A stretch of 50,114 nt of DNA from a virus. Positions 2,283-49,426 of this stretch are shown here, one piece after another. Below the pieces are notes generated by a model that worked only from the letters and a program-made list of their open reading frames with translations, did not search any database and had not been told where the DNA came from. Every line of letters begins with the position of its first letter. The first letter of the stretch is position 1. The stretch is from IMG/VR virus record IMGVR_UViG_3300043639_000041, positions 1 to 50,114 of that record. One strand, written 5' to 3'. The position numbers and the translations under genes were made by a program.

Positions 2283-4745
2283 TTAGGGCGTGAACGGCCC
2301 GCCCTGGGGCAAAAGGCTTTGGGCGCGGCGATTGTGCAGCTTGTCCCACTCGATCCCCAGGGCCGCGCCGGTCATTTTGTCGTAGGGGATCGTGGTGTCA
2401 CGATGCGCCCACACCACGCGCCGCCCGGCGTCTGTCTGGACCGGACCGCCCTGGTTCAGTCTTTGGCATCCCGCCTGGACCATGAGCCGCCCCATTCTCT
2501 CGGTCGTGGGAACCATGGTCTTGCGGGGCAAGCCTTGGTCACCCGAACGCAGCGCGGCTTCCACGAGGTCCACCAGTTCGTGCGCGGTCAGTAGATCATG
2601 CAATGCCAGCGGGTGGGGCGGCTTCAGGTCCAGCCGGTCATTCAGCCACGCCAGGACAGGCCCGCCGCTCAGCTTGATGAGATGCCGCTTGTTCTGGGTC
2701 ATCGGGGCGTGTCCCTGGACTTCCCCCAGCATGAGGGCTTCGTCCCAGTAGCGGATCAGGTATTCCACGACGGCGTCGTTGTTCGTGGCGCCCCAGGGCG
2801 AGGCCGCGCCGAACCACGCCGCCAGCTTCTGGTGCCGGTCCACCGTCCAGCCGGTGTCCGCCGTGTAAATGACCCAAATGCGCCTGTCGTCCTCGGGCAG
2901 CGTCATGGGCCGGTCCTCGTTCGACGTCATCACCAGCACGAACGCGTTGGCCGCGTTGATCGCGGTCATGTATTTCTGGTTCACCGCGTCGAACGCCCGC
3001 CCCGCGTCGCACATGCGCTTGATCGCCTGATACTGGTCATGATCAGTCGTGGTCCCCCGCGTGGTCCGCCGTACCTCGGGCATCAGCACCAGCCGGTTCA
3101 GCGCCCAGGGGTTGAACTCGGAATTGAACATGGCCTGGGATATGCTCAACGCCCGCTCCGGCCCCAGGACACTCACCAGGGGCGCCCAGATTTGCTCTTT
3201 GCCCGCGCCCTGGGGGCCAATGATCAGGGGGTTGTTGGCGGGTTTGATGTGAACCGCGCCCACGATCATCGCCATGTAGTTTCGCAGCCGCCGCAGGTTC
3301 TCGATCCCTTCGGGCGTGGGTCCCATGAGCGCTCCCGCCAGCGCCCACCAGTCGCTGGCCAGGACATACCGCTCCAGATCGGCGAGCGGGACATGCGCCA
3401 GAGGCCGGGGGATGTCCCGCCAGGTGTTCACGTAGCACCGGGACATGCCGTTGGTGATCGCCGTGAACACCAGGGGCTTGCCGGGCCACCACGTCCGGGC
3501 ATCCACGTCACGCGCCACGCTCGATCCCCGCGCCCAGGCGCTGGGCGTGATTTCCCGTCCCTTGGCGTCGGTGGGCAGCAGCCCGCGCAGCCGGGGCAAC
3601 CAAACCTTGTTCAGCGCCCGGTCGTTGAGCGTCGTGTCGTTGGTCAGGTCCAGCCAGCGGTCCTCGGTGGTCAGAAACACCACGCTCTCCATGAACGCCT
3701 TGATGGGGGGTAGGACCGGCGTCGCCTTGACGGGGCTGGGAGGCACCGTGGCCGGGTCCACCACGCCGAACGTCGATCCATGCGGGTCGAGGTCGTCCAG
3801 CCCCATCAGCCCGCCGCTGTCCTCCCGTATGAGTTCATCCATGCGGGTGCGGACGTCCGCCGGGTGCCGGTTGTCGCAATGCCCGTGCCAGCACCGGAAC
3901 CCACCACCCCGGAAGTAGGCCGTTCCCGTGTTCTCGGCGCCCGTGCCGGGTGTGTGTTCGTGGCTCCAGGGGCAGATGATATCCCAGGCCACCCCCTGCG
4001 AGGTCTGGCGCGGGCCGCCCAGGATGAGCCCCAGCCGCCACATCGCCTCCAGAACAGGGTCCCGTCCCTTGGTGTGTCCTGGGACAGGGGCGGGAACAGG
4101 ATCAGGCGCTGGCGAGCTGGCCGCCGGAGCTGGGCCACCAGAAGAAATCTTATCATCGGGCAAGGGACACGCCGCCTCCACCATTTCAGCCGTGATCGTC
4201 CGTTTCTCGGCGCCGGAGGCCGCCCAGTAAACGCTGGGGAACCCGTTGACCCCCAAATGCGCTTTGTTGTTGGTGCCCTCGGGGAGGCGCATGATCCGCA
4301 CCACGCCCGCCATCCCCGGGTCCTTGCCGCTGAAATGGTTCGCCACCACCCGTTTGAGCAATCGTTCAGCCCGTGTCCGGTCATAAATCCAGGGGTCCAG
4401 TCGGTAGCCCCATTGCTCGTTCAGGGGCGAGGTCCGCAGCCGGTAGGTGGGCTCGCCCAGCGCCGCCCTGATCTCTACCGGGTCGCCCTTGGGTCCCACG
4501 TCATCCAGCACCAACACACACAGGGCTTCGAACCCCGTCTTTCGCCGCTGCGCCGGGTCCTTCACCAGGGACACGCAAAAGTAGTTATTCAGTTTCGGGT
4601 CCAGCGGGAACGCGTCCCGGGCGGCGCGGGCTGGCCACCCCTTGGCCTTCAGATCGGCCACTGAACACACCGAAACCCGGTGCCAGTCGGCGCGGAACAA
4701 CAGGCGCAGAAACGCTTCGTTGGCGGATGGGACAGGCGTTGTCAT
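2283..4745 (-). CDS. Replicative primase-helicase (RepB-like primase / DUF5906 helicase)
   Basis: The product is 820 aa from ATG 4745; the frame is open further upstream but that part reads as low-complexity and lacks a credible start. The N-terminal third resembles RepB/AEP-type primases (VVRIMRLPEGTNNKAH near 150). A zinc-finger-like region follows, with a CP..H motif and CWHGHC. The C-terminal half is a superfamily 3-type ATPase with Walker A GPQGAGKE, a Walker B-like region LVLMPEV and a VMTSNED sensor. This matches phage DUF5906/VirE-type primase-helicases that prime and unwind at the fork beside a family A polymerase. It is the last gene of the - strand lysogeny/early operon and abuts the candidate origin. 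Exact primase subfamily is uncertain. Confidence 0.85.
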   Translation of the reverse strand: MTTPVPSANEAFLRLLFRADWHRVSVCSVADLKAKGWPARAARDAFPLDPKLNNYFCVSLVKDPAQRRKTGFEALCVLVLDDVGPKGDPVEIRAALGEPTYRLRTSPLNEQWGYRLDPWIYDRTRAERLLKRVVANHFSGKDPGMAGVVRIMRLPEGTNNKAHLGVNGFPSVYWAASGAEKRTITAEMVEAACPLPDDKISSGGPAPAASSPAPDPVPAPVPGHTKGRDPVLEAMWRLGLILGGPRQTSQGVAWDIICPWSHEHTPGTGAENTGTAYFRGGGFRCWHGHCDNRHPADVRTRMDELIREDSGGLMGLDDLDPHGSTFGVVDPATVPPSPVKATPVLPPIKAFMESVVFLTTEDRWLDLTNDTTLNDRALNKVWLPRLRGLLPTDAKGREITPSAWARGSSVARDVDARTWWPGKPLVFTAITNGMSRCYVNTWRDIPRPLAHVPLADLERYVLASDWWALAGALMGPTPEGIENLRRLRNYMAMIVGAVHIKPANNPLIIGPQGAGKEQIWAPLVSVLGPERALSISQAMFNSEFNPWALNRLVLMPEVRRTTRGTTTDHDQYQAIKRMCDAGRAFDAVNQKYMTAINAANAFVLVMTSNEDRPMTLPEDDRRIWVIYTADTGWTVDRHQKLAAWFGAASPWGATNNDAVVEYLIRYWDEALMLGEVQGHAPMTQNKRHLIKLSGGPVLAWLNDRLDLKPPHPLALHDLLTAHELVDLVEAALRSGDQGLPRKTMVPTTERMGRLMVQAGCQRLNQGGPVQTDAGRRVVWAHRDTTIPYDKMTGAALGIEWDKLHNRRAQSLLPQGGPFTP

Positions 4746-5049
4746 TGGGATAAGCGCATCGAAAGCGCCCCTCTGGTGGGTGGGATGAAACAGCACGGAC
4801 AACGTCCGGTGGGATCGCCGCGCGGCGAGGCTGTCCCCGCCAGGACAGGCTGTCAACCAGGACAGGACACCACATAGCCGTTGTATTCCACGGGGAACTT
4901 TCCTACCTTCCCTGGACTTCTGTCGGGCGGCGTTTCGAGAGCGACACGCCGCCGGGTAGGGAGTGAGGCCCACGGTGGGCGAGGCGCAGGGGTGTGCCTC
5001 GTTCAGCGAACGCCCGGTCCCCGGACCCCCGGGGCCGGGCGTTTTCATT
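4746..5049. other. 300-bp gap upstream of the primase gene
   Basis: No convincing gene was seen. The stretch has an 8-bp hairpin, GGCGGCGT (4926-4933) with ACGCCGCC (4946-4953), several TGTCC/GGACA motifs around 4830-4875, and a + oriented terminator at its right end. On the - strand it would be the untranslated leader of the primase gene. A short + strand RNA ending at the terminator is possible but unsupported by a promoter. Confidence 0.4.
5010..5046 (+). terminator. Rho-independent terminator (+ orientation)
   Basis: The stem ACGCCCGG (5010-5017) / CCGGGCGT (5035-5042) has an inner CCCC/GGGG extension and is followed by TTTTC. No + strand gene is evident just upstream. It may stop antisense transcription into the - strand operon or end a small RNA. 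Confidence 0.6.
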
Positions 5050-37311: not shown

Positions 37312-39765
37312 TCAAGGCGTAGGCATCCCCTGTGACGAAGCACGCATCCGGGGCATTCCGCCGCCCGTGCCTGGACGATTGCCGTTGCGCCCGAACACCT
37401 GGAGGGGCGGGACACGCGGTCCCAGCCCGCCCGCCGTGGACGGTCCCTCCACGGCGTTGGTCAGCCCCTGGGGTCCCTGGGCGGACGGGTCCTGGGCTGG
37501 ATCGGCGGGACGGGGCGGTCCCTTGCCCGCGCCCTGCGGGGCGCCTTCGTCGGCCTCGCCGGGGGCCTGACCAGGACCGGGCTGGGGCGACGACATGAGC
37601 TGGTTCAGCGCCTCGATGCTGGGCATCCCCTCGGCGAAGGCATCGGTCAGATCGAGGTCGGCGCCCATGCGCTGGATGATCTGGCGCGCCAGCCACTCCG
37701 GGCTGATCCCCGGCACCCGCTGCAAGATGGGCGCGAGCTGCACGATGTTCTGCACGTCCTGGGCCTTGTTCGGCGCCCCATCGCCGCCCGCGTCAACCTC
37801 CAGGTAGACATTCTTGGCGATGGTCTGGCGGTCGATCTCGGGCCACACCGCGCCGGGTCCGACGATCTCTTTCACCACCTGGGCGGACACGTTGAGCATG
37901 AGGATTTCGCCGCCCGCCCGGGCCATGTCGGTCAGCATATCGTTCATGTCGTCGGTGACCGAACTGACGTCCGTGTGCTGGCTGAACTGGGCGACGCTGA
38001 CCTCGGTGGCGGTGGCGTTGCTCGTGGTGCCCTGATCGGCCTGATCGGAGCCCAGGACACGCAGCATGTCTTCGAAAGTCGGCGCGGTGTCGTAGACCGC
38101 CGGGTCGATGGGCGGGTTCTTCACCACCTGGAGCACGTCGTCGATCTTTTGGCCGGGCGCCAGGGCGTTCAACTCCAGGACAGCGTTCGCCGGATGCGTG
38201 CGGAGCTTGTCCTTGTCGGTTTCCTCCAGCACGCCCGCCGCCACCACGGTCTTGGGCCGGTTGGCCCGGCGGTGCTCACGTAGACCTTGCCGGGCGCGGT
38301 TCAGTTCAAGCTGCATGTCCCGGATCAGGTCGATATCGGACTGCGGGAAGAGCACGTTTTCGTCGTAGCCCTCGTTCAATACGAACGCGAACCAAGGATA
38401 AAACCGCGATATCTCGACATCCGGCGACGTGGGCTCCTGGAGAAAATCACAGTAGCCATCGCACACGACGTAAACCAGTCCATCCTTGCGGTGATAAATC
38501 TCCCAGACACACGCGTGTCCCTGGACACTGTCGCTGTCCCGCCCGCCCGCGTCGTAATGGCGGTTGACGACGCCCTCGTTCGTTTCGCCGTTGTCATCGT
38601 AAACCGCGTAGCCATGACCGATGTCCACGCCATAGACTTCCTGGATTTCATCGGGCGTGAGGATGTATTGCTGCGCCACCCAGTCGGAGCCCAGGAAGCC
38701 CCGGAGCGTGCGGCACTTCTTGTCCGGAATGATCGACGTGCTGTCCGGGTAATCGAAGCTCAGACCTTCGCGAACGATGAGCTGGGGCTCGGCCTGGAGC
38801 GCCTTGACGGCGAGGCCCAGGGCCTCGGCGTCGGCGCTATCGTGTTCGAACTCGCCGTCCGCCATGTCCTGGGCCAGCCGCTCGATGTTCGCCAGCCGCT
38901 CGCTCATGTCGGCGATACGCGCCTCGATGGCCGGGTCCATTTTCATCGCCCGTTGAAAGCCCAACTTGACATAACCCACGCTGGTGACGATGGCGCGCCG
39001 CACCGTCATTTTCATCATGGTTTTGAAACTATGGGTCTGCTCTTCGATGTTATATTGATACAAAATCTCCAGGGTGCGGGCGATCCGGTCCATGAGCTGG
39101 TCATACTGCTTGACCATCTGGACGTCCTGGAGGATCGCGTTGGCTTGCATGGCGCTTCGCATCCCCGCCGGTCCCGCCGTCAGCGCCTGTTGCATCCCCA
39201 TCTGGGCCTGTTGCAAGGACGCCATGCTCCCGTCCCAGACCGTGGCCATGATCTTGGGCCGGGATTTGGCCTTCACGGTGGGGTTCTGCGGATAGAGTTC
39301 CGCCGTGCGCTGGAGGACGTGACGCAGGGCGATGTTGGCCACGTAGCGTTCGTCCCGCTCGGCGTCGCGGCGGCGCTTGCGGCGGCGGCGGGTGTCGGTT
39401 TCCCACTGGTCGCCGTTGACGAAGCTCATGCTCGCCCGCATCCGCTCGAAAGCCGGTTTCCAGTATGTCCGCGCCTCACGCACCCGAGACTGCCAGCGCT
39501 TGACCAGCGCCTCCCGGGCCTCCCCGGGCTCTGGTGGCTTACGGGAAATGAGCTTCGCACTGGGATCGGTGTCGGTGATCGGCGGGGACATCATCCCCGG
39601 GGACGCCTCGTAAAGGCCCGGACCGGGCGGCGTGGTCATCGGCGGGGCTGGCCCTGGCGGGGGGAAGCCCGCACCGCCAGGGGCGCCTCCCAGGCCCGGG
39701 GTGTTTGGGGGCATCCCGGCGGCTGGAGGGGGTGAGCCGGGGTTCGGGGGAAGCATACCGCTCAT
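37312..39765 (-). CDS. Portal protein (817 aa)
   Basis: ATG 39765 follows GGGAGG by six bases and overlaps the TerL stop (TGATG). A GTG one codon upstream is less well placed. After a proline/glycine-rich N-terminus come RWQSRVREARTYWKPAFERM, then VNGDQWE and NIALRHVLQRTAELYPQNP. Further on are RDMQLELNRARQGLREHRR and a Pro/Gly C-terminal tail. This is the podovirus portal pattern. It forms the dodecameric DNA gateway with TerL during packaging. Long coiled stretch near 290-330 (ADMSERLANIERLAQDMADG) fits the barrel/stem helix. Confidence 0.88.
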   Translation of the reverse strand: MSGMLPPNPGSPPPAAGMPPNTPGLGGAPGGAGFPPPGPAPPMTTPPGPGLYEASPGMMSPPITDTDPSAKLISRKPPEPGEAREALVKRWQSRVREARTYWKPAFERMRASMSFVNGDQWETDTRRRRKRRRDAERDERYVANIALRHVLQRTAELYPQNPTVKAKSRPKIMATVWDGSMASLQQAQMGMQQALTAGPAGMRSAMQANAILQDVQMVKQYDQLMDRIARTLEILYQYNIEEQTHSFKTMMKMTVRRAIVTSVGYVKLGFQRAMKMDPAIEARIADMSERLANIERLAQDMADGEFEHDSADAEALGLAVKALQAEPQLIVREGLSFDYPDSTSIIPDKKCRTLRGFLGSDWVAQQYILTPDEIQEVYGVDIGHGYAVYDDNGETNEGVVNRHYDAGGRDSDSVQGHACVWEIYHRKDGLVYVVCDGYCDFLQEPTSPDVEISRFYPWFAFVLNEGYDENVLFPQSDIDLIRDMQLELNRARQGLREHRRANRPKTVVAAGVLEETDKDKLRTHPANAVLELNALAPGQKIDDVLQVVKNPPIDPAVYDTAPTFEDMLRVLGSDQADQGTTSNATATEVSVAQFSQHTDVSSVTDDMNDMLTDMARAGGEILMLNVSAQVVKEIVGPGAVWPEIDRQTIAKNVYLEVDAGGDGAPNKAQDVQNIVQLAPILQRVPGISPEWLARQIIQRMGADLDLTDAFAEGMPSIEALNQLMSSPQPGPGQAPGEADEGAPQGAGKGPPRPADPAQDPSAQGPQGLTNAVEGPSTAGGLGPRVPPLQVFGRNGNRPGTGGGMPRMRASSQGMPTP

Positions 39766-42143
39766 CACCAGCCTCCCTGACCGAAGCCCAGGCGAACGGA
39801 TTGCTCGGCCTGTTCGCGTTGCATTTTCATCCAGCCGAAGGTGCCTTCAGCCACTTCGGTCTGGCGGGCTTTGAAAGGCCCGGCGGTGACCTGAAGGGTG
39901 AGCCCCAACCCCACGTAGGCGAGCGTGTCCACGAAATCGTCGTGCGCATCAAAGGGGAATTTAAGCATCTGGTCCCGCGCGGCGGGCCACCACGCCGCCC
40001 GCTCGGGGAAGCGCACCTTGCCCATGGACATGCGACCCTGGATCGACTGGGCGCGGGTTTGCTTGTCGGCGATGGGCTGCATTTCGATGATCGAGCAAAA
40101 CGTCTTGGTTTCCATCATCCGCTTGCGCAGGAAAGGCCCGATGGACTTGCTGATGTGGCTGCGTTCAGCCCACCAAAAGACGGGTTTATGCGCCCGCATC
40201 ATGCGGATCATGCTTTCCACCGCCTGTTCCGCCGTGAGCATCCGCCAGACCAGATCGGGCAGGACCCAGATCGTGTTGTCCTCATCGACGCCGACGACCA
40301 GGAGACAGGTTTTATCGCTGTCCTGCTTCAGGCTGACCGCGTGATCGGAGGCGGCGTAAACCCGCAGGTTAGCGGGCAGCTCGGCGGGCCGGTAGGTCTG
40401 TATCCATTTGGCGCTGAAAAAAGCGCCGCCCGCCGGGCTGGGGCGGCCCTGGTAGAGAGCGCTAAAACCCCGGTTGTCGCGGCGCTGGAGCCCCAACAGG
40501 AAGTCCCGCCCGAACCGTCCGGGCCACAGCGGCTCGCCCTCTTTGCGCTTCAGCGGATCGGTGTCGGCGTCCATCGCCAGCGCGGGCATGTCGATGATGC
40601 GCCAGTCGGCGGCTTCCTCGGGATCGTAATAGCTGTTCGTCGGGTCGGTCAGCCTTCCGACCAGATCGTCCTGGTGCCATCTTGTATTGTGGCTTACCAG
40701 CCCGTTCGCTATGAAATTCGCGGTGCCTTCTACTTCAACATCAAAGACATACTCACACCCGGCGAACGTAATACTCGCGATTTCATCCAGCACAATCTCG
40801 TAAGTATCGAGCGGCCCGGAGCAATCGGTCTTCTGTTCGTCCGTAGCCAACCATGAGGTTGCAGTCGTTGCAAAGCAATCCTCTGACCCGCCCCGTGGCG
40901 TGATCGTGGTCAACGCATAATTTTCCGTTCCAATGCGCTCGGGTGTTGGCGCCGGATGGCAGCGCTCCACAGACAGCACAAACCCCGCCCTGGTCCACGA
41001 GTATAGCGTCATGCTCCGTGACTTCGATCCCGTATCGGTGTCGCAGGTGGGCGGCGCGGCGTGATCGTGGGTTATGCGAGGGGGACCGAACCCCCGTGGC
41101 CCATCGGGTCTGGCTGTAGTGTTCTCGGCACTCCCCCTTGCAACTAACCGGCTGTCCGCAGCCGTCACGCACACAGAGTTTCCCGCTCCAGGTGCCCTTA
41201 CGGACACGATCCGGTGCCCCGGGCGCAAGTCCCAAACCCTGACCCACTCTCTCGCTCCGTCGTTATCAACCAGGAATGGGTGCCGTTCGTTGGCTTTGAC
41301 CGTGCTGCCCGACGCCATCCTGATCGCGAACACGCAATCGGGCAGCGGTTGGCGTTTCCAGTTCTTAACCCTGGAGACCGAAACGCCGCCCGCTTCGTAA
41401 GTGGCGATCTGATCGCCGGGGCGGATATCGCTAAGGGGTCTTTCCGTGCCGTCCGCCATGAGGACAGGCGTGTCCCCGGTCATGCACTGAATGAGCATGA
41501 TCCGGCCCGTCTCGTCCATCAGGCGGGACGCGATGACCTGGGTGAACCACGTCCAAAGCGTGTCCCGGATCGTGGGTGAGTCGGCCTCGTGGCGATCTTT
41601 CAGGGGATCGTCGATGATCAGCACATCGCCGCCGCGCCCGGTGGTTGTCCCGCCCCGTCCCACGAAAGCCATGATGCCGCCCTGAAGGGTCTGGAGGCGA
41701 TCAGAGGCGAGGCTGTCGTCCTTCAGGACCACGTCCGGGAACACCTGGGCGAAGCCAGGCCCCAGCATGATATCACGCACCGCGCGGCCCACGTCCTGGC
41801 CGAATTTCTCGTTGTAGGTACCGAAAATCAGGCTCTTCTCGGGGTTCCGGCCCATATACCACGCCGGAAACATCTTAGACGCCAACTGGGTTTTACCGTG
41901 CCTCGGGGGGAGGCTGATGATCAGGCGTTTAATATTACCCTTTTCGAGTTCTTCCAGCCCGGCGCACATGATCCGGTGGAAGCGCTGGGCGTCGTAGCGG
42001 CTGAAATCGGGATCGGCGGCGTGTCCCGGGACAGGCATCATCAGACGGGTGAACGCCAACAGATCATCACGCGCGTCGATGGCGGCGATCAACCGCTTGA
42101 GCACCAACTCGTAACGCTGTTCGTCCCGGGTCATCAGGATCAT
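39765..42143 (-). CDS. terL: Terminase large subunit interrupted by an intein (792-aa precursor)
   Basis: ATG 42143 starts the terminase homology; the open frame upstream reads as a shadow of the neighbouring gene. Walker A LPPRHGKTQ (about 79-87), Walker B VLIIDDP (174-180), coupling motif IMLIQ interrupted at residue 219, continuing TRWHQDD. The C-terminal RNase H-like nuclease has YAASDHAVS, VVGVDEDN and the acidic motif DAHDDFVDTLAY. Residues 220-486 are an intein; splicing would leave a 525-aa TerL of normal length. It powers DNA packaging and cuts concatemers. No clear SD before 42143. Confidence 0.93.
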   Translation of the reverse strand: MILMTRDEQRYELVLKRLIAAIDARDDLLAFTRLMMPVPGHAADPDFSRYDAQRFHRIMCAGLEELEKGNIKRLIISLPPRHGKTQLASKMFPAWYMGRNPEKSLIFGTYNEKFGQDVGRAVRDIMLGPGFAQVFPDVVLKDDSLASDRLQTLQGGIMAFVGRGGTTTGRGGDVLIIDDPLKDRHEADSPTIRDTLWTWFTQVIASRLMDETGRIMLIQCMTGDTPVLMADGTERPLSDIRPGDQIATYEAGGVSVSRVKNWKRQPLPDCVFAIRMASGSTVKANERHPFLVDNDGAREWVRVWDLRPGHRIVSVRAPGAGNSVCVTAADSRLVARGSAENTTARPDGPRGFGPPRITHDHAAPPTCDTDTGSKSRSMTLYSWTRAGFVLSVERCHPAPTPERIGTENYALTTITPRGGSEDCFATTATSWLATDEQKTDCSGPLDTYEIVLDEIASITFAGCEYVFDVEVEGTANFIANGLVSHNTRWHQDDLVGRLTDPTNSYYDPEEAADWRIIDMPALAMDADTDPLKRKEGEPLWPGRFGRDFLLGLQRRDNRGFSALYQGRPSPAGGAFFSAKWIQTYRPAELPANLRVYAASDHAVSLKQDSDKTCLLVVGVDEDNTIWVLPDLVWRMLTAEQAVESMIRMMRAHKPVFWWAERSHISKSIGPFLRKRMMETKTFCSIIEMQPIADKQTRAQSIQGRMSMGKVRFPERAAWWPAARDQMLKFPFDAHDDFVDTLAYVGLGLTLQVTAGPFKARQTEVAEGTFGWMKMQREQAEQSVRLGFGQGGW
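40686..41486 (-). mobile_element. Intein in terminase large subunit (267 aa)
   Basis: Starts with Cys (block A CMTGDTPVLMADG, then LSDIRPGDQI) and ends with block F/G (YVFDVEVEGTANFIANGLVSHN split at 246-267) giving terminal His-Asn; the +1 extein residue is Thr. Block B is GSTVKANERHPFLV (about 60-73) with T62 and H69. The usual block F histidine is Asn. Insertion is at the invariant IMLIQ/TRWH motif between Walker B and the coupling helix, where deletion must be precise. The ~155 residues between splicing blocks (about 80-234) are not endonuclease-like in this frame; the endonuclease is encoded in the -1 frame. Confidence 0.92.
40783..41247 (-). CDS. Nested endonuclease VII-type HNH homing endonuclease (154 aa, -1 frame of the intein)
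   Basis: The same strand as terL but shifted by -1. The C-terminal half is a recombination endonuclease VII domain: zinc cysteines C90/C93 (CAVCG) and C126/C129 (LLCNDCN), HNH core VDHDHATGRVRGLL (112-125) and N130. An N-terminal zinc ribbon (CVRDGCGQPVSCKGECREHY, 25-44) is typical of homing HNH enzymes. In this frame TGA TAA lie five codons upstream of GTG 41247. CGGAG sits between them and the GTG, spaced seven bases, so independent initiation is likely. The stop falls just before intein block F. Probable role: cuts intein-less terL to drive homing. Confidence 0.88.
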   Translation of the reverse strand: MGQGLGLAPGAPDRVRKGTWSGKLCVRDGCGQPVSCKGECREHYSQTRWATGVRSPSHNPRSRRAAHLRHRYGIEVTEHDAILVDQGGVCAVCGALPSGANTRAHWNGKLCVDHDHATGRVRGLLCNDCNLMVGYGRTEDRLLRAARYLRDCAG

Positions 42144-42175
42144 GGCGTCGCCATCAGGCTTCGGTGCCCGCCCTG

Positions 42176-42547
42176 TCAGGTCAACGTGAACGCGGCGGTG
42201 GTGACCGGCGGACCGAAGAGCGTGGTCGCCGTCGCCGTGGCCGTTCCCGCCACCAGCGTGCCGCCCGCGAACGTCGCGGTCCAGGCGCCCGTGGCGAGAT
42301 CGGCGCTGACCACCTGGTTGCCTTTCACGGTGGCACTCTGGGTGAGCGTCACCCCCACCTGGACCGGCGGCGGGCAGCTTTGATCGACCAGAACCGTGCC
42401 CGTGACAGTGGTCACCGCCGCCGCCGCGTGGGTTGGGATCACGGCGACGGTGAGGGTTTGCGCGTTGCCCGAAGCGCAGTACTCCCGCCATGCCTGTTTG
42501 AGATAGCGAAACACCGAAAACGGGTGCGGCGCCGCCGCGACCGTCAT
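42176..42547 (-). CDS. Secreted-type or virion beta-rich hypothetical protein (123 aa)
   Basis: Short N-terminal helix (FSVFRYLKQAWREYCASG) then a Thr/Val/Ala-rich beta domain of about 85 residues (VTLTQSATVKGNQVVSAD...GAWTATFAGGTLVAGTATATAT) resembling an Ig-like/Big repeat. ATG 42547 overlaps the preceding stop (ATGA). Upstream of terL in the late operon; probably a minor virion or capsid-decorating protein. Confidence 0.6.
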   Translation of the reverse strand: MTVAAAPHPFSVFRYLKQAWREYCASGNAQTLTVAVIPTHAAAAVTTVTGTVLVDQSCPPPVQVGVTLTQSATVKGNQVVSADLATGAWTATFAGGTLVAGTATATATTLFGPPVTTAAFTLT

Positions 42548-43152
42548 GGGAACGCCTCGACGGTAACCTCGTTGGAGACGGGAGCCTCAGCCGATCCAGC
42601 GGCGTTGCTGGCGGTGACGACACAGGCATACGCGCGCCCCACGTCATCCGCCACGAGATCGTAAGTGCTCACGCCGGGGCCAACCTCCAGGCCATCCGCG
42701 ATCCAGAGATATGCATACTGATCCGGCACGTTTTCCCAGTTCCCCATGGTGCAAGCCAGCACCGCGCCGTCCTGGGACAGGTAGGGCACGTCGATGTTGA
42801 CGGGCGGCTCCGTGGCGGCCTCGGCCATGGGACCCGGGGCGGGCGGGCTGAGTTCGCCGTCCGTGATCACGCTGTCGATGGGGTCGCGCGGATCAGGCGG
42901 TTTGACGAAACTGTCCAGGTAATCCTCGGCGCTTTCCTGGCTGATATCAGCCATCCCCGCCGCCACGGGGTCACGCGGATCGGGCGGGGCGTGGAACGCG
43001 TCCAGGTAGGCCACGGTTTCGGCGTCCATGTTCGGATCGCCCTCCGGGACAGGGGGTGGCGCGTCGGACCAGCCAAACGGGACCTCGTAGGGCGGGTTGA
43101 CGACGGGGATGTCCGTGGTTTCCACCACGAACGGCGGCGGGCTGTCAGACAT
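42544..43152 (-). CDS. Virion protein with Ig-like domain (202 aa)
   Basis: GGGAG nine bases before ATG 43152. Proline/acid-rich N-terminal half with a duplicated segment: AYLDAFHAPPDPRDPVAAGM and YLDSFVKPPDPRDPIDSVI (about 48-100). The C-terminal ~85 residues form an Ig-like fold: MGNWENVPDQYAYLWIADG, then GRAYACVVTASNAAGS. Ig-like domains on phage particles bind surface polysaccharide weakly. Exact location unknown. Confidence 0.65.
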   Translation of the reverse strand: MSDSPPPFVVETTDIPVVNPPYEVPFGWSDAPPPVPEGDPNMDAETVAYLDAFHAPPDPRDPVAAGMADISQESAEDYLDSFVKPPDPRDPIDSVITDGELSPPAPGPMAEAATEPPVNIDVPYLSQDGAVLACTMGNWENVPDQYAYLWIADGLEVGPGVSTYDLVADDVGRAYACVVTASNAAGSAEAPVSNEVTVEAFP

Positions 43153-47878: not shown

Positions 47879-49426
47879 ATGGCTACTCCAACCCCCGGCG
47901 CCCAACGGCGCCAGAACCTGCGGGACGCGTTGCGCCGCGCCTTCACGACCCCAGGCATGGCCCTCGTCAAGGTTACCGCCGCCCAGGCCATCATCGGTTC
48001 CGACCCGATCAACAACCTAAGCATCGCCCGCCTGGAGGACGCGTTGCGCGCCTTCGGCATCGACCCCGCCACGCTGACCGGAGCACCCGCCACCATGCCC
48101 AGCACGAGCCCGCCCGACGACGACCAGGACGATGGTCTGATCCCGCCCCCCGACGACCGGACACACGACCCCGCCGATAGCGCCGTTGACGATGCCAGCG
48201 ACGACGCCGCTCGCGCCGCCGCCGAGTCGGCGGCGATTGAAGCCCAGCTTGGCGCGTTGCGGGCTGAGATAACCCAGGGCGGTTTCGCCGCCTTCGATGA
48301 CAAGCTACGCGAGCTGGTCATCGCCGCTCGCAAGCCGCCGGTCATCGTGCATGTCCCGGTTGAGGTTCCCGCCGTGACTGACATTGATCGGACGACGACC
48401 CAGGCGGCGCCCACGGCGCGGACCGTGACATGGAAACAGGCGTTCAGCGTCAAGGGCGCCCTGGGAGCCGAAACCTGCACGGTATGGGACGGCGCCCACC
48501 CCGACACGCCCAGCTTTCACCCCGGCTATGTCTGGCCGGATCAAACCGTGGTCGCGCTCACCCAAATGAAGCGCAAGCGTAACGTATATCTGTTTGGTCC
48601 CGCTGGCGCCGGTAAAACCGAGTTCGCTCAGCAAATCGCCGCGCGCCTGGGGCGTCCCTTTGTTTTGATCTCGTGTGACGCCAGTACGGACGCCGCCACG
48701 CTGGTGGGCATGACCGTTCCGGATAAAGCCGGGGGTGTGACGTTCCAACCGGGTCAGCTTGTCAGGGCCATTCAAACCCCGGGCGCCGTCATTTGCATTG
48801 ACGAGCCCAGCATTGCCCGCCCTGGGGCTTTGTTTGTGTTTCAGAATGTTTTGACGCCGAACCGGGCGCTGTTCATTCAGGAGACAGGGCAACGGATCAA
48901 GGTGGCGTCGGGCGTTTCTTTCATCGCGACCGATAACACCAATGGCACGGGCGGCGGCGCGCGTAAGGGCTTCCATGGGACACAACCGTTGAACGCCGCC
49001 ACGCTGGATCGTTTTGGCGTGCGTATTCGCCTGACGTGGCTGGACGCGCCGGTTGAGGCGAAACTCATCGCCAACGCGGTATCGGGCTGCACCATCGAAC
49101 TGGCCACGCTCCTGGTCCAGGCCGCGACGACCACGCGACAGGCGGCGGGTAACCAGGTGTTGACCGAGGGCATTGGCCTTCGGCGCCTGTTCTCCTGGGC
49201 TGAGTTGCTGGTTGATGGGATCGACCCGGAAACCGCCTTCCAGTCGGCGATTGAAAATTGCGTCCCTGAAACGGAACGCGAGGCGTTGCGTCAACAATGC
49301 GTGCTGAGTATCGACCGCGACCAGGTGCGCAGGGCTCTTAACCCCCAGGCGGCGCCCGACCTGCCGCCGCCTTCCATGTCCCGCGCCGCCGCTGACTTCG
49401 ACGCCGTATCCTTCAAGGGGTTTTGA
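47879..49426 (+). CDS. MoxR/CobS-like AAA+ ATPase (515 aa)
   Basis: ATG 47879 with AGGAA eight bases upstream. N-terminal ~190 residues are helical with an acidic proline-rich linker (about 75-105). The AAA+ core has Walker A GPAGAGKTE (240-248), the CobS/MoxR-type GxxxxxxGMTVPDKAGG insertion, Walker B VICIDEPS (D308/E309), sensor FIATDNTNG and arginine-finger region ATLDRFGVRI. The stop is two bases before the HExxH/VWA gene. In the characterised CobS-CobT and MoxR-VWA pairs the AAA+ ring remodels a target recruited by the MIDAS domain. Substrate here unknown. Confidence 0.9.
   Translation: MATPTPGAQRRQNLRDALRRAFTTPGMALVKVTAAQAIIGSDPINNLSIARLEDALRAFGIDPATLTGAPATMPSTSPPDDDQDDGLIPPPDDRTHDPADSAVDDASDDAARAAAESAAIEAQLGALRAEITQGGFAAFDDKLRELVIAARKPPVIVHVPVEVPAVTDIDRTTTQAAPTARTVTWKQAFSVKGALGAETCTVWDGAHPDTPSFHPGYVWPDQTVVALTQMKRKRNVYLFGPAGAGKTEFAQQIAARLGRPFVLISCDASTDAATLVGMTVPDKAGGVTFQPGQLVRAIQTPGAVICIDEPSIARPGALFVFQNVLTPNRALFIQETGQRIKVASGVSFIATDNTNGTGGGARKGFHGTQPLNAATLDRFGVRIRLTWLDAPVEAKLIANAVSGCTIELATLLVQAATTTRQAAGNQVLTEGIGLRRLFSWAELLVDGIDPETAFQSAIENCVPETEREALRQQCVLSIDRDQVRRALNPQAAPDLPPPSMSRAAADFDAVSFKGF

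Follow-up and report, generated by a model that had tools for sequence, protein, structure and literature searches.

The window analysed here is the whole 50,114-nt stretch of IMG/VR virus record IMGVR_UViG_3300043639_000041. Its minus strand carries a gene for the large terminase subunit (TerL), into which an insert of 801 nt is placed between Gln and Thr (IQ/TRWH); the insert is free of stops in the TerL frame, and intact empty alleles exist in relatives. Within the insert two reading frames are in use, that of an intein continuous with TerL and that of an EndoVII-type HNH nuclease gene, whose frame lies one base before the intein codons and is therefore the -1 frame (Table 1). A sequence-only reading of this stretch had proposed that the TerL frame remains open across a 267-aa intein and that a complete 154-aa endonuclease VII ORF, introduced by TGA TAA, CGGAG and, at normal spacing, GTG, lies in the -1 frame and finishes just ahead of block F. 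The coordinates and the openness of the frame hold, the nuclease assignment is borne out by Pfam, the upstream signals are present in the sequence as described, and 99 nt of the intein remain beyond the end of the ORF. Away from this locus, two genes judged by eye lie near the ends of the window: the one on the left (9-1559) is VWA-like and contains a repetitive acidic stretch (GDDASDDQDDQGAP), and the one on the right (47879-49426) is AAA+ ATPase-like; in a circular genome the two may belong to a single cluster.

Table 1. Features of the terL gene, its intein and the overlapping nuclease gene (positions in the 50,114-nt window)
Feature	Position	Strand	Evidence or remark
terL gene	39765..42143	-	PHROG 38 terminase large subunit E=5e-98; Terminase_6N, Terminase_6C
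terL start ATG, likely	42141-42143	-	placed by homology and frame; ORF itself extends to 42647
N-extein of TerL	41487-42143	-	
C-extein of TerL	39765-40685	-	
Intein, 267 aa	40686..41486	-	Pfam Intein_splicing E=6.6e-15; NCBIfam intein N- and C-terminal regions
N-splicing domain, intein residues 1-98 (Cys1, block B NxxH)	41193..41486	-	pLDDT 90-98
C-splicing domain, residues 226-267 (block F, block G His-Asn, then Thr+1)	40686..40811	-	high pLDDT
Intein-frame loop, residues 101-222, predicted disordered	40821..41186	-	pLDDT ~35; omega 0.88
EndoVII-type HNH nuclease gene, 154 aa, -1 frame, stop codon included	40783..41247	-	Pfam Endonuclease_7 E=2e-17
Nuclease start GTG	41245-41247	-	
Shine-Dalgarno-like GGAG, 7-nt gap to GTG	41255..41258	-	
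Upstream -1-frame stop TAA (TGATAA in DNA)	41263..41265	-	
Putative zinc finger, nuclease N-terminus (C25, C30, C40, H43)	41119..41175	-	zinc binding presumed
Catalytic beta-beta-alpha-Me core: C90xxC93, D113-H114-x-H116, C126xxC129-N130	40858..40980	-	invariant in 44 sequences

The residues that mark a splicing-competent intein are all in place, namely Cys1, the block B His, the penultimate His, the terminal Asn and a Thr at +1, and in an alignment of 44 intein sequences C1, N66, H69 and N267 are invariant while H266 is found in at least 90%. A HINT fold is indicated by the Pfam Intein_splicing match, by matches of its sequence profile to solved inteins (best 4o1r, 4.9e-17) and by an AlphaFold model, in which the two intein ends form a confident, beta-rich and complete splicing fold and about 120 disordered residues lie over the nuclease gene; the loop of residues 101-222 is the intein-frame reading of that gene. 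The fold and the motifs suggest that the insert acts as a self-splicing intein. A group I intron was rejected, as no Rfam intron family was matched over 39700-42700 even at E≤1.

The product of the -1 frame belongs by its sequence to the EndoVII or beta-beta-alpha-Me nucleases, with two zinc CxxC pairs and a DHxH...N catalytic core. Its sequence profile matches T4 EndoVII (1e7d, E=1.1e-5), its AlphaFold model is well folded (pLDDT 87), and the best solved-structure matches in Foldseek are Hpy99I and T4 EndoVII, with high probability and modest E-values. Like T4 endonuclease VII and the EndoVII-type homing genes of phages, the protein has the zinc CxxC / DHxH / CxxCN core, but it differs from them in one or more additional putative zinc fingers at the N-terminus, where C25, C30 and C40 are invariant and H43 occurs in at least 90% of 44 sequences, and in being overprinted on an intein, annotated phage EndoVII genes being separate genes. 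In one relative (L071:3719-4426) the nuclease has a further N-terminal zinc-finger-like segment, apparently duplicated, and the intein frame is open there too.

Searching IMG/VR with the nuclease returned 187 relatives; 80 of these loci were retrieved, and in every one the nuclease overlaps an intein in its -1 frame, with TerL exteins recognised beside nearly all of them. The intein protein used as a query of IMG/VR gave no match, because several of the exact peptide patterns fall in the fast-drifting loop; an alignment of 18 rows (A1), in which the L016 row differs from its locus by two residues, served as a search query only. An intein-domain search added viral contigs and genome contigs titled Bradyrhizobium, Nonomuraea, Mycolicibacterium, Gallionellaceae, Anaerolineae and others, and the same arrangement was found separately in a Streptomyces anulatus plasmid terminase. 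The first set of complete inteins, 85 including the window and five sequenced phages (Gordonia phages Affeca and Vivi2; Mycobacterium phages Phlyer, Vincenzo and phi1_186018), is uniform: each is divisible by 3 in length, stays free of stops in the intein frame and carries the nuclease in the -1 frame. Routine disruption of the -1 ORF in homologues, which the sequence-only reading had named as the outcome that would speak against it, was not found. Among 115 distinct inteins from all sets, 113 have an intact nuclease that begins at the conserved start, finishes shortly ahead of block F and contains the catalytic motif, these sequences being related and the counts thus not fully independent; the two exceptions, L169, whose intein length is not divisible by 3, and L178, look broken. 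Since more than 100 related phages and prophages keep it, the arrangement is real and widespread.

Selection was measured from isolated differences in 75 pairs, each scored by its effect on both frames. This comparison of rates in the two frames across homologues, which had been put forward as a check, reveals that constraint switches frame along the element. The intein frame is under constraint upstream of the nuclease (omega ~0.05), both frames are over the first 18 nuclease codons, and in the middle constraint acts on the nuclease frame (dNN/dSN 0.04) and is absent from the intein frame (dNN/dNS 0.88, bootstrap 0.75-1.08); past the nuclease stop the intein frame is again constrained (0.01-0.05). 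When the nuclease codons of 50 sequences were shuffled synonymously, 1.34 intein-frame stops per sequence were expected (~67 over the 50 sequences) and none is observed, while the third frame is never open and has 12.6 stops per sequence against 12.0 expected. The middle drifts yet stays stop-free, and therefore this part of the intein is a loop in which little about the sequence matters except that it remains open. The proposal that one DNA segment is both an intein linker and a separate nuclease gene with its own start is thus supported by conservation and by frame-specific selection.

Signals for a separate start are conserved as well. In all 50 non-redundant inteins a start codon (ATG in 39, GTG in 11) is found between +233 and +239 of the intein. 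It uses the base that precedes an invariant Trp codon, and this base is a purine in 26 of the 26 cases in which the intein frame permits a pyrimidine, where a fraction of 0.53 is expected. A Shine-Dalgarno core of at least 4 nt precedes the start in 76%, compared to 20% at control positions, with a spacing peak at 7 nt. All 85 complete inteins have an upstream -1 stop inside the N-splicing domain, and in L043, L050, L052, L060, L064, L065 and L069 the stop directly precedes the start (taaATG or tgaATG). Most mini-inteins that have no nuclease show a similar start and Shine-Dalgarno-like sequence, so that inheritance or coding in the intein frame may account for part of the signal; these minis do not discriminate, and therefore we rely on the informative third positions and on the within-gene controls. 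Because the start and Shine-Dalgarno are conserved and -1 stops lie upstream, internal initiation appears to be the best-supported route of expression. The same conservation of start and Shine-Dalgarno suggests that expression of the nuclease is decoupled from splicing.

The distribution of the element is sporadic. The Gln/Thr junction is contiguous, and hence empty, in 75 of 79 informative TerL relatives, which are up to 89% identical, and is occupied in 4; one further TerL locus did not reach the junction and was left out of the 79. Identities of host gene and element are inverted in many pairs: the window and L302 share 89% in TerL and 50% in the nuclease, the window and L004 39% and 67%, Affeca and Vivi2 98% and 49%, and L018 and L020 35% and 89%, respectively. 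AU topology tests on the short nuclease were mostly non-significant, with one rejection (L049 with L051, p=0.0007), and therefore the case for mobility rests on the identity inversions and the empty sites. Mini-inteins flanked by TerL exteins and devoid of the nuclease also exist; several are deletion derivatives of nuclease-bearing inteins, and L094, L099, L101 and L102 retain -1-frame nuclease fragments left after deletions that kept the intein frame. Empty sites, discordant similarity and deleted remnants are marks of homing, and the pattern matches a homing cycle in which the nuclease would be dispensable to the host. Sporadic presence and a history discordant with the host gene, read together with tree tests that are mostly non-significant, are what a homing endonuclease would leave. 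It is plausible that a mini-intein was invaded by a free-standing gene; alternatively, the frames may have diverged later.

Taken together, we favour the reading that the TerL insert is an intein carrying an overprinted, separately started homing gene, with a probability of roughly 0.83. That paired-indel assembly or sequencing errors shifted a nuclease that is really in frame, or that the -1 ORF is a relic, has nothing in its favour beyond the broken-looking L169 and L178. Against it stand strong purifying selection on the -1 frame and an offset that is identical in 113 distinct intact sequences, which come from independent assemblies, phage isolates among them; we reject it as having a negligible chance of being right, since the arrangement recurs, and its recurrence in independently sequenced phages excludes the paired-indel error of which the sequence-only reading had warned. 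Programmed -1 frameshifting, by which terL ribosomes would make a fusion of TerL-N, intein-N and nuclease, has in its favour that the offset is -1, the commonest kind of programmed frameshift, and is identical in every relative. However, the upstream -1 stops found in every complete relative disfavour it, several of them standing directly before the start, so that no shift could take place ahead of the gene, and a conserved start codon and Shine-Dalgarno also speak against it, so we regard it as unlikely.

The nuclease could instead be a domesticated packaging or Holliday-junction factor kept for the benefit of the phage. Its location in the terminase gene and its likeness to EndoVII fit this idea, as does the statement in PMC4422536 that HNH proteins next to terminases act in packaging (Kala et al. 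2014, cited therein). The absence of the element from 75 of 79 TerL relatives, the persistence of mini-inteins from which the nuclease is gone and the discordance between the histories of element and host gene argue against such a role, which we consider unlikely. Other known architectures do not describe the locus either: the nuclease lies in the -1 frame in every relative and is thus no conventional in-frame homing domain, terL is one continuous frame and not a split intein with an intervening nuclease gene, and the insert holds a full splicing domain, which sets it apart from a hidden HNH insertion of the ShiLan type.

For an intein with an overprinted homing gene we propose the following course of events. 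Ribosomes translating terL in frame would produce TerL-N, intein and TerL-C as one chain, in which the intein ends would fold into the splicing domain and the middle encoded by the nuclease gene would form a disordered loop; judging from fold and motifs, the intein would then excise itself and join TerL. Other ribosomes would start at the internal Shine-Dalgarno and ATG or GTG in the N-splicing domain, as the conservation of these signals suggests, and make the -1-frame nuclease. During co-infection the nuclease may cut an intein-less terL at or near the Gln/Thr junction, a step proposed from the sporadic presence and discordant histories, and repair would then copy the whole element into the cut allele. 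Where the nuclease is lost by deletion, a mini-intein could persist because the intein frame is kept, and such remnants are seen.

In canonical inteins the nuclease is usually encoded in frame and belongs to the protein that is spliced out. The TerL element resembles canonical LAGLIDADG or HNH inteins in its splicing fold, in having an insertion at the usual position of the homing domain and in its sporadic presence at one conserved site; unlike them, its in-frame loop is unconstrained and the nuclease would be a separate -1 product. The 'fractured genes' of Dassa et al. 2009 are reportedly split inteins whose two halves are separated by a free-standing nuclease gene. They share with the present case a free-standing homing gene at the intein centre, but they split the host gene, whereas the TerL intein is contiguous and its frame open across the nuclease gene.

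A precedent is known from brucellaphages, for which an out-of-frame putative HNH gene attributed to an intein in the middle of the large terminase gene was noted in 2015 (PMC4422536). That account consists of a few sentences on near-identical phages, free of frame-wise selection, start-site or homologue analysis. The ShiLan domain and Pacc40 (PMC11855218, 2025) are similar in having an HNH in another frame, an open host frame, a GTG start, a sporadic distribution and homing as the suggested explanation. The ShiLan domain, however, lacks a splicing domain, shows no detectable ribosome-binding site and resides in a DNA methylase gene, unlike the TerL element with its full intein, Shine-Dalgarno and terminase host. 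PMC11855218 cites a preprint on non-canonical actinobacteriophage inteins (bioRxiv 10.1101/2025.01.02.630785), which may overlap with the present findings. Given the brucellaphage and ShiLan precedents, the novelty here is therefore a broadly conserved class with frame-resolved selection and not a first sighting.

At least two other HNH families occur out of frame in TerL inserts. A PHROG 1271 HNH is found in the +1 frame of a second TerL intein, located before LLIDDP in L007:1727-2710 and also in L059:906-1910, so that in L007 and in L059 a single terL holds two inteins, each with an out-of-frame nuclease of its own; this intein is present in ten viral contig records, the query's own included (also L321-L329). 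PHROG 1271 HNH relatives lie in the +1 frame of terL in Gordonia phage Clown (L310) and Synechococcus phage S-EIVl (L311), in whose inserts no splicing motif was seen with the pattern used. A PHROG 3377 HNH occupies the +1 frame of another terL insert in six contigs (L057:648-1376, the query, and L313-L317); the host-frame insert has no Pfam intein match, and the ends of the L057 insert are block-like and intein-like by eye only (FFADGVLTHN). LAGLIDADG-like inteins at yet another TerL site (L015, L037, L074, L080 and L141) are in frame.

Further inserts were seen on other contigs. L182, a contig assigned to a Berkelbacteria MAG and identical in sequence to IMG/VR record L319, has a second intein (3960-4967) with an HNH_3 nuclease in the -1 frame (4064-4921), and a search for relatives of this nuclease found only its own copy. 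In L188:467-1396 (Thaumarchaeota MAG) an intein-like insert has a C2H2 zinc-finger HNH ORF in the +1 frame (687-1382), the host gene being probably a helicase to judge from the flanking IIDE and CHHLPAES. A gene annotated as a DNA helicase in Gordonia phage Squiddly has an EndoVII-type gene in its -1 frame (L088:2246-2782), which resembles the ShiLan and Pacc40 insertions, with no intein splicing domain noticed. We think it reasonably probable that overprinted inteins are a recurrent class, in which unrelated HNH families came to lie, in -1 and +1 and independently, over open intein loops and were missed by annotation.

The arrangement described here is a conserved way for a selfish element to hold two products on one stretch of DNA, in which the loop of the host frame need only be stop-free and out of the way and the nuclease would be started independently, which would separate nuclease dosage from splicing. 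It is also a naturally occurring, long-lived case of overprinting in which the switch of selection between frames can be measured. For inteins described as having no homing nuclease, our findings suggest that the other frames should be read again, and the sequenced phages of laboratory hosts (Phlyer, Vincenzo, Affeca, Vivi2 and Clown) make the arrangement testable.
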